A stretch of 64,000 nt of DNA from Arenibacter catalasegens. Lineage in GTDB: Bacteria > Bacteroidota > Bacteroidia > Flavobacteriales > Flavobacteriaceae. The stretch spans positions 1 through 64,000 of the forward strand of contig NZ_PHQQ01000021.1 in assembly GCF_002909235.1 (NCBI RefSeq), read 5' to 3'. The notes beneath the pieces are model-generated. The model searched no databases and was not told where the DNA came from. It was given only the letters and a program-made list of their open reading frames with translations. Below, piece by piece: positions 8 through 8,244 of the stretch (its first letter is position 1; each line of letters opens with the position of its first letter). The translations under genes and the position numbers were made by a program.

Positions 8-117
8 TTAGGTGGCCATGGCGACGGGGCCCACCCCTTACCATTCCGAACAGGGAAGTTAAGCCCGTCTGCGCCGATGGTACTGCTACACCAAGTGGGA
101 GAGTAGGCCGCCGCCTT
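8..117 (+). rRNA. rrf: 5S ribosomal RNA
   Basis: The conserved 5S core around CCATTCCGAACAGGGAAGTT (positions 41-60) and the GATGGTACTGC segment are present. The terminal helix closes: AGGTGGC (10-16) pairs with GCCGCCT (110-116) with one G-U pair. The length of about 110 nt is normal. It would be the last gene of an rRNA operon whose 16S and 23S genes lie left of the window. A rho-independent terminator follows within 10 bases. The exact ends are estimated from the helix. Confidence 0.95.
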
Positions 118-123
118 TTTTTG

Positions 124-161
124 AAAGCACTTACCATGTATATGGTAGGTGCTTTTTTTTT
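124..161 (+). terminator. rRNA operon terminator 1
   Basis: A 12-bp stem (126-137 with 142-153, one G-U pair) has a four-base loop and is followed by nine T. It sits immediately after the 5S gene and would end the rRNA transcript. Confidence 0.9.
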
Positions 162-349
162 GTCCTAAACTCTTCATAAAAGAGACCTCCATTAAATATA
201 TCGATCCGACAACCTGTCACTAAATTCTACCTGGAGTTACGGGCTGTCATGGAATGGCACGCCTAGGGCGTGATCAGTTCCTGCGACCACCGCTACTGCA
301 CTTTGTTTGTGCCAATGGGCAGTCATTAATAGGCCTCCGTCTTTTTTTG

Positions 350-386
350 AAGGCACTTGCCATGTATATGGTAGGTGCTTTTTTTT
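350..386 (+). terminator. rRNA operon terminator 2 (repeat copy)
   Basis: This is a near copy of terminator 1. The stem 352-363 pairs with 368-379, and eight T follow. It is preceded by the same CTTTTTTTGAA that joins the real 5S gene to its terminator. Confidence 0.8.
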
Positions 387-493
387 GGTTAGGACCCAGG
401 GCAAGCCCCTGGCACGATCAATTCCTGCTTCCATGGCCACTGCACTTTGTTTGTGCCAATGGGCAGTCATTAATAGGCCGCCGCCTTTTTTTG

Positions 494-528
494 AAGTCCC
501 CCCGCCTACGATGAAGGGACTTTTTTTT
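494..528 (+). terminator. rRNA operon terminator 3 (divergent hairpin)
   Basis: AAGTCCC (494-500) pairs with GGGACTT (516-522), followed by a run of T. It occupies the same place in the repeat as terminators 1 and 2 but the stem sequence is unrelated, so the hairpin was replaced while its position was kept. Confidence 0.75.
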
Positions 529-593
529 GCCCTAAATCCAAGTACTTTTTCGGCTATAGTAAATTAACCATATTAAATTATCTAAATCTTATA

Positions 594-1115
594 TTATAGT
601 AATTTATTGGCTACTTCCAGCCAATTGTCGGCACGTTCATATCCTGTGGTATGTATATTGTGTGGGGAGGTAAACAATATTTTTCTGCCCTTAAAGTGTT
701 CTAGATTGTAACTGCGATCATCAATTAAAATATCTCCAGATAGAATATGTTTGCTACCGCAGAGAATGCGATTTCTCCAATGTATAAAAGGAAAATGTTC
801 GTCCAACCAGTCACTTTTTTCCCTTAAAGAATTAGGGTATTCCATTGCAGCCGAGGCTACATATAGATCATATTTTAAGGATAGTTCCTTTAAAACCTTT
901 TTACTGTCCTTGATGGGTTTTAGGTCTCTAAAGAAACCATCTGTCCTGGCGTGACTCCTTATGCTAAATTGCCGTTCTTCCGGGACACTCTGCCAAACTT
1001 CCCGGCCCATGCAGTCCATTTCAGAAAGGGTTTCATTAAATTCCGCATTGTATCGTGTTATGTGTGCGTTATATGCATCGGCAAACACCTCGTCCATATC
1101 TACAAATAAAGTCAT
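594..1115 (-). CDS. 5'(3')-deoxyribonucleotidase-family HAD phosphatase
   Basis: A 173-residue protein of the NT5C-type nucleotidase family, HAD superfamily, expected to dephosphorylate (deoxy)nucleoside monophosphates in the cytoplasm. Motif I is DMDEV (Asp6 nucleophile, Asp8), motif II is in VASAAME (Ser88), a lysine at 122 fits motif III, and the metal-binding DD pair is at 132-133 (LIDDRS). The length is normal for the family. It is a single gene, reading toward the rRNA operon, with about 200 featureless bases upstream. The family is clear; the exact substrate is not. Confidence 0.85.
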   Translation of the reverse strand: MTLFVDMDEVFADAYNAHITRYNAEFNETLSEMDCMGREVWQSVPEERQFSIRSHARTDGFFRDLKPIKDSKKVLKELSLKYDLYVASAAMEYPNSLREKSDWLDEHFPFIHWRNRILCGSKHILSGDILIDDRSYNLEHFKGRKILFTSPHNIHTTGYERADNWLEVANKLL

Positions 1116-8216: not shown

Positions 8217-8244
8217 CAACTTTCACGATTATCGTCAGAGGTTG
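8217..8244 (-). promoter_or_regulatory. Possible L19 mRNA leader structure
   Basis: In the rplS 5' leader, CAAC (8241-8244) pairs with GTTG (8217-8220), and inside it ACGA pairs with TCGT around a three-base loop (8225-8235), separated by an internal loop. Leader RNAs of ribosomal protein genes, including an L19 leader candidate in flavobacteria, have been described in general terms; whether this is that motif needs a covariance search. Confidence 0.35.

Follow-up and report, generated by a model that had tools for sequence, protein, structure and literature searches.

The stretch of DNA analysed here (the window, 64,000 nt) opens contig C14 of a 5.45-Mb Arenibacter genome (labelled G000) and starts at the end of an rRNA operon, the contig beginning 7 bases before the 5S gene. 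Between this gene and a convergent 5' nucleotidase gene lies a short array made of two kinds of module, T and P, with the features below (bit scores for P are to the covariance model R1, of which both copies are member sequences).

8..119, plus strand: 5S rRNA gene, end of the rRNA operon (Rfam RF00001, 76.1 bits)
104..163, plus strand: T module 1, the 5S 3' tail, a T-run and a predicted intrinsic terminator of type A (stem -20 kcal/mol)
239..255, plus strand: ACGGGCTGTCATGGAAT, likely a remnant of a P 3' end (compared with P units by eye)
256..330, plus strand: P module 1, an apparently chimeric two-hairpin palindromic repeat (79.5 bits)
330..389, plus strand: T module 2, a copy of the 5S tail (330-351, 2 mismatches) with a predicted type A terminator (stem -20 kcal/mol)
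400..474, plus strand: P module 2 (76.9 bits)
474..531, plus strand: T module 3, an exact copy of the 5S tail (474-495) with a degraded type B stem at 493-523 (stem -10 kcal/mol)
594..1115, minus strand: 5' nucleotidase (NT5C family), convergent with the rRNA operon (ORF; Pfam PF06941, E 2.1e-58)

The 22-mer at 104-125 has an exact copy at 474-495 and a two-mismatch copy at 330-351, and no further place within five mismatches was found on either strand of the whole 64 kb. The copies at 256-352 and 400-496 (97 nt each) are 86% identical and spaced 144 nt apart, and 104-163 is 92% identical to 330-389. A first-pass annotation of this DNA had claimed that the 5S tail and a terminator occur three times after the rRNA operon and that the second and third tails lack a 5S body; repeats, coordinates and spacing were all re-measured and agree with the former claim, and the latter holds as well, no 5S body standing before the tail copies and RF00001 scoring a single 5S in the window in both gathering and lax scans. 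One strong stem forms both the first and the second hairpin (-20 kcal/mol each, reached by 0 of 200 shuffles), whereas hairpin three is a different and weaker one (-10 kcal/mol, 4 of 200 shuffles as good); a terminator scan recovered the first two and missed the third, finding 2 against a shuffle mean of 1.2. At gathering cut-offs the Rfam scan of the window returned only the 5S and an L19-Flavobacteria ribosomal protein leader at 8217-8244 on the minus strand (RF03130, 41.6 bits).

Terminator and palindrome modules in Arenibacter

The modules were resolved by reading rRNA operon ends across the genus Arenibacter. Fifty-five ends were fetched and 20 of them, which had no 5S, flank or recognised module, were dropped, leaving 35 with 5S and flank on one contig. 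The array that follows the 5S consists of two kinds of module of about 75 nt each, and the window reads 5S-T-P-T-P-T. T is made up of AGGCCGCCGCC, a T-run, GA, the terminator stem, a second T-run and a short spacer; P runs through GCACGCC, four bases, GCGTGAT, a TAATTCC-like motif and a longer second hairpin to a GTCATTGAAT-like end. The 144-base tandem unit described at first therefore keeps its spacing but is really two modules. There are two main T stem types within identical flanks, type A (AGCACTTACCATGTATATGGTAGGTGCT-like) and type B (GTCCC...GGGAC), and the window carries, in order, A, A and B. Its third stem does differ from the first two, as had been remarked, but it is no oddity, being of the type that is commonest at Arenibacter operon ends.

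The two P modules of the window are 100% identical over their 3' halves and 71% identical over their 5' halves. P1 folds no better than its shuffles (z 0.27), its arms no longer matching, and to judge from these identities it is a visible recombinant that joins the 3' half of P2 to a 5' half of another type. P2 alone folds into a structure other than that of the family. Positions 160-299 of the window, within which the putative P remnant lies, also open contig C67 at 99% identity.

Across the 35 ends, 19 have one T without P, six have one T with P, seven have two T and three, the window among them, have three T; more than one tail copy is present in 10 of the 35. Spacing is regular, at 72-76 nt from T to P in 32 of 35 intervals, 74-76 from P to P in 19 of 21 and 75-76 from P to T in 16 of 18, and what follows a full P unit (50 units) is another P in 19 instances, a 5S-tail copy in 16 and the flank in 15. 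We take the array to be real and widespread in the genus. It is true that the window contig, like many others, starts at a repeat (the rRNA), but an assembly artefact of a short-read draft is so unlikely that it carries next to no weight with us: here and on contig C12 the array runs without a break into unique flank, one operon of the single-contig genome G004 carries three tail copies (the terminator of the third being broken), and the same arrangement is found in the finished E. coli K-12.

Operon loci were told apart by sequence motifs of their downstream genes, the 5' nucleotidase gene marking the locus named alpha. At this locus the arrangement ranges from 5S-T alone (G014, G011, G001, G007), via that of the window, to ten full P units (G003). 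In the last genome (L098 33-782, G003:C10) the ten units stand head to tail at an exact 75-nt spacing, with a piece of an eleventh, at a contig start that is presumably an rRNA operon end. Among the 50 full P units, mean identity is 0.86 within the same array (78 pairs), 0.73 between operons of the same genome, 0.70 at the same locus in other genomes (212 pairs) and 0.68 for the remainder (850 pairs). Identity is thus highest within arrays and has a near-zero excess for orthologous loci, which argues that arrays evolve together and that operon orthology is nearly lost. Model R1 had no match on the fetched ends of G001, G007, G008, G011, G012 and G013; CACGCC-like scraps persist at the ends of G011 and G013, and the end of G010, which lay outside the R1 search, stops directly after T. 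Copied tails have a mean mismatch of 2.1 to the 5S of their own host and 3.9 to that of other hosts, and the own-host 5S was best or tied for 10 of 14 tail copies from 12 lineages (sequences entered by hand), which weakly suggests that the copied tail tracks the 5S of its host.

In many Arenibacter ends (for example L066, L071 and L085) the stretch from the last module to the first gene also holds long quasi-repeats, rich in A+T and of the type ATTGNTACATTGA, and the blastn cross-matches seen between flanks of different operon loci were attributed to these.

The P repeat family and its distribution

Eighteen P units from Arenibacter and other Flavobacteriaceae were aligned and folded jointly by RNAalifold, which gave a hairpin 1 and a long hairpin 2. 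In this structure 94.0% of cells are paired compared with 81.9% in shuffles, 13 of 25 pairs vary on both sides, and the covariation score of 0.415 stands against a shuffled mean of 0.171 (sd 0.014) with 0 of 500 shuffles as high; these figures are flattered by the structure having been derived from the sequences tested, and related units are counted more than once. Shifting the partners by 1-3 columns lowers pairing to 21-41%. The number of further pair types is not above that of shuffles (313 of 500 as high), and hairpin 1 has no both-side changes. P is a real structured family with strong covariation, and its members share a GATTARTTC-like motif between the hairpins and a TCAYTAAT-like motif at the 3' end. 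In the eight sources scanned, no Rfam match was found over P at E up to 1, the lax scan of the window giving only a sub-threshold Pseudomon-1 that touches P2 (22.7 of 50 bits, E 0.04). With P there is one more structured repeat family, one that went unrecognised in these Rfam searches. A sub-threshold BSnc120 (33.2 of 114 bits, E 0.00015) lies near the end of a sister array, described below, in L213, over a stretch that is mostly another hairpin.

With up to two mismatches, the pattern CACGCCNNNNGCGTGATYNNTTCC has four places in this genome, on contigs C12, C14 and C67, all of which were taken as rRNA ends: C12 and C14 carry a 5S, and C67 begins just past one (its identity to the window is given above). 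P as a dispersed REP in this genome was accordingly rejected. In the genus the pattern matches in 10 of 18 genomes, with 2 matches in total for a reversed-pattern control, and all its places fall within regions taken as operon ends; for several ends with no 5S on the contig (C67 of this genome, G003:C10, G016:C12, G002:C11 and G006:C28 among them) this placing was inferred from the contig end, modules or flank. The unit is thus present at other rRNA flanks, absence from which had been named at the outset as the outcome that would speak against it.

R1 itself has five matches at rRNA ends of this genome (one partial) and two more on units of a sister array at 83.6-83.8 kb of C67, in which a focused search found six units, down to E 0.027. 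These six tandem repeats (ATCCCGCC..GGCGGGATTAGTTCAACC..; G000:C67 83647-84185, L219 1501-2039, minus strand) have as neighbours, named by eye, a dnaJ-like ORF and an ABC transporter ATP-binding ORF, and similar repeats are dispersed in G030, G246, G287 and G128. Under strict filters, R1 matches in 14 of 299 family genomes. Eight of these matches were judged to be at rRNA ends (G000, G009, G172, G312, G260, G187, G071 and G222, the last on a contig with no 5S); six have no 5S alongside (G030, G128, G246, G264, G287, G323), as have second loci in G172 and G000. The dispersed relatives are mostly of the form ATCCCGC..GCGGGATTAGTTCAAC..GTTTCACTAA. P looks like the rRNA-end branch of a wider Flavobacteriaceae superfamily of two-hairpin repeats, a link suggested by model scores of 30-57 bits and by common motifs.

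A pattern scan of GTDB genomes gave 60 stretches, of which 16 from Arenibacter and 17 others were read; the other 27, from many phyla, were judged chance matches of a loose pattern. Among named genomes, rRNA operon ends carry the pattern in Hyunsoonleella pacifica, H. jejuensis, Jejuia pallidilutea, a Flavobacteriaceae MAG and a Bacteroidetes MAG. In each a 5S-like tail comes next, and behind it a terminator, which is not clear in the Flavobacteriaceae MAG. Across 395 genomes of the phylum (a draw that includes family members), R1 matched one genome under strict filters, the window's own. In an uncultured Flavobacteriaceae (CANLWN010000001.1, 2, 3, 7 and 10; L129, L132, L146, L155, L158, L166, L167) a dispersed repeat with hairpins CACGCC..GGCGTG and CCTCC..GGAGG was seen, which may represent a further branch of the superfamily or a chance hit of the search pattern. 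A phage or plasmid origin was rejected, the P pattern having no exact match in viral contigs and positions 104-540 none in plasmids and phages. A link to Y1 transposases was likewise rejected: Y1_Tnp has five matches in this genome, four above cut-off, and their 1.5-kb flanks hold no R1 match.

One explanation for these data is that P acts as a functional RNA in the 3' trailer of the rRNA, an aid to processing or termination that is inherited vertically and includes the tail copy. The covariation of P and its presence at operon ends of several genera fit such a role. Nevertheless, P is absent by model from 19 of the 35 Arenibacter ends, the rRNA-end matches of R1 come from only 8 of the 299 family genomes (weak matches do not pass the strict filters, and contigs of many drafts end at rRNA), P always stands behind a terminator in arrays that carry a 5S, both window copies are decayed or chimeric, and Rfam gave no match beyond the weak one at P2. 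We consider this explanation improbable.

Filled and empty sites at rRNA operon ends

A survey of the family took 80 regions for their downstream room, regardless of P; one (L286) was too short, which left 79 ends from 53 genomes. A tail match with at most 3 of 16 mismatches and 0 of 100 shuffles as good was found at seven of the 79, and six remain once the match of L273 at +531 is taken as chance. By genome, tail copies stood at two of two ends read in G214, one of two in G166, two of two in G215 and one of two in G203. L296 of G118 is borderline (4 mismatches at +136, 2 of 100 shuffles) and was left uncounted, and G071 has a diverged tail copy that the tail-match test missed and model R1 found. 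Outside the family, 63 ends at class level were analysed, five more being dropped as too short; the best 25 of the 63 include one clear tail copy (L344, 0 mismatches), which has 5S sequence before it, and a match of L354 at +665 with 3 mismatches was taken as chance.

The two ends of G166 form a filled and empty pair. L303, the filled end, is the empty end L304 with an extra 149 bp, which stand between two copies of the 18-mer TAGGTCGCCGCCTTCTTT; the stretch that starts at the second tail and takes in the resident stem is identical at 46 of 46 bases, and past a one-base difference in a T-run so are 101 of 106. The terminator brought in bears no relation to the resident one, so this is not a simple local duplication. 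The spacers of G166 and G214 appear unrelated to P.

E. coli rrnB carries two terminators. In K-12, rrnA, rrnB and rrnD all read tail, T1, a spacer of two hairpins (seen by eye), tail and T2, with a T2 stem unrelated to that of T1. The end of rrnG is without the insert, having a tail, a T2-like terminator and a flank in common with rrnA, and supplies the empty partner of a second pair: rrnA differs from rrnG by 168 bp between copies of AACTGCCAGGCATCAAAT, and the sequence matches beyond the second terminator. At offset 168, 93 of 130 positions are identical (the stretch includes bases before the tail), compared with 28-42 at other offsets. The ends of rrnC, rrnE and rrnH are of other types, and the tail copy behind rrfF bears the tail variant of rrfF itself. 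By megablast, and within its sensitivity, the T1-T2 spacer is absent from 1512 of 5426 E. coli genomes; the other 3914 have it in a median of 2 places (range 1 to 9), and 28 of 7919 spacer places are on plasmids. Missing in some genomes and in one to nine places elsewhere, the module is thus polymorphic within one species.

The tail copies might also be the remains of second 5S genes left by a degraded tandem duplication. This does hold for two genomes, G215 and G203, whose spacers can still be read as the 3' half of a 5S, so that simple 5S duplication also occurs, and 5S sequence also stands before the tail copy of L344. The stretches before the tail copies of L305, L306 (G215) and L307 (G203), recognised by eye as degraded 5S 3' halves, resemble 5S pseudogenes from tandem duplication. 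What stands before the Arenibacter tail copies, however, is P, with a covarying structure of its own, and the window scores one 5S only; a 5S duplication is disfavoured for the window and, as a general account, appears very improbable.

Proposed movement of modules and comparison with known systems

We propose that the window ends in a modular, fast-changing tandem array of T and P whose units are moved by recombination between rRNA operon ends, a reading to which we give a probability of roughly 0.6. A T-P unit of about 150 bp would enter exactly at the 5S tail and push the resident tail and terminator downstream, which would explain why the tail recurs while the 5S stays intact. Units may be gained and lost by homologous recombination, by gene conversion between operon ends or from imported DNA, every event leaving a tail copy and a spare terminator. 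Gene conversion between rRNA operons of E. coli is the subject of PMC8022953, and the identities among P units suggest that it may also act between the ends considered here. Recombination between operon ends had been put forward in the first-pass annotation and is well supported, as every place of the P pattern found in this genome is at an rRNA end, the arrangement of one operon varies among species and P1 has the look of a recombinant. The precision of the P/tail junction in several genera counts against our reading, being more than plain illegitimate recombination requires, and so do the unrelated incoming terminator of the G166 pair, the lost and altered folds of the two P copies in the window and the 28 spacer places on E. 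coli plasmids.

T1 would probably suffice to end the operon, and the extra T modules may provide back-up termination, stopping transcripts that would otherwise run on into the convergent 5' nucleotidase gene. It is plausible, as also suggested earlier, that serial predicted terminators make the operon end very tight, although the third stem is weak and was missed by the terminator scan, which speaks against back-up termination. P may persist mainly because a palindromic repeat tolerates or corrects itself, its fold being maintained either by selection for the folded strand or by palindrome correction during replication.

Another possibility is that the T-P unit is a site-specific, non-autonomous miniature element that integrates at the 5S 3' end and brings a replacement tail and terminator, as tRNA-targeting islands do, with a recombinase supplied elsewhere that reads the P hairpins as folded single-strand DNA. 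Consistent with this are the precise filled and empty pairs of G166, where the direct repeat is 18 bp long, and of E. coli K-12, the identical P/tail junction at operon ends of several genera and its recurrence with spacers seemingly unrelated to P (G166, G214, E. coli), the conservation of P in structure and not in sequence, the dispersed sister repeats, which this genome has too, and a presence that is patchy even among operons of one genome. Against it, the P pattern in this genome is confined to rRNA ends, P has no exact match in viral contigs and 104-540 none in plasmids or phages, 0 of 5 Y1 transposase matches (four over cut-off) have a model match within 1.5 kb, and other tail copies carry degraded 5S in place of P (G215, G203). 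The T-P unit has no room for a gene, and the search for a helper covered Y1_Tnp alone. Of the earlier suggestion of a mobile palindromic element carrying rRNA tails, the palindromic P with its covariation, the dispersed relatives and the filled and empty pairs in a relative and in E. coli are borne out; neither a mobilising enzyme nor a transposition event was found. On balance we think it doubtful that the unit is such an element. It is similarly a tentative idea that T-P units are miniature mobile elements with the 5S 3' end as attachment site, whose insertion spares both 5S and termination, and that this strategy arose more than once, in Flavobacteriaceae and at rrnA, rrnB and rrnD of E. 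coli; if true, the textbook T1-T2 terminator would be a domesticated insertion.

Whichever process moves their units, the arrays are of a kind known from E. coli; the modules, their covariation and their distribution appear new within the searches made. Among the literature matches listed, titles and the openings of abstracts named neither 5S-tail copies at rRNA ends nor the P repeat. Like the T1-T2 region of rrnB, the window repeats the 5S tail ahead of a second terminator (104-125, 330-351, 474-495) and has a palindromic spacer between terminators, although its own P copies fold poorly or differently. The E. coli spacer appears unrelated in sequence to Arenibacter P (by eye, unaligned), the insert is 168 bp in place of about 150 for the T-P unit, and the many-unit spacer runs of Arenibacter are met at none of the seven K-12 operon ends read.

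REP elements sometimes occur in arrays and are associated with RAYT transposases. P resembles them as a short palindrome outside genes with conserved motifs and a tendency to form arrays. However, REPs are palindromes of 20-40 bp tagged GTAG and CGTC according to PMC3733652, whereas P has about 75 nt and two hairpins. A REP tag (GTAG, CGTC or reverse complement) lies within about 6 bases of an end in 2 of 50 full P units, both of them one sequence in two loci of G002. P further differs from the REP/RAYT system in being found in this genome only at rRNA ends, with no transposase alongside.

In islands that integrate in tRNA 3' ends, a direct repeat of the 3' end of the gene flanks the insert and the gene stays intact. 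Here too a direct repeat of an RNA gene end flanks a precise insert (L303/L304 of G166; rrnA/rrnG of E. coli), but the T-P unit lies at 5S genes and not at tRNA genes, is about 150 bp long, has no integrase and includes a terminator. The ends of rRNA operons are usually regarded as mere terminators. Those described here are a hot spot for the gain, loss and exchange of terminators and of a structured palindrome, the same architecture is present in two phyla, and the Arenibacter array offers a testable account of how the double terminator of E. coli rrnB evolved.
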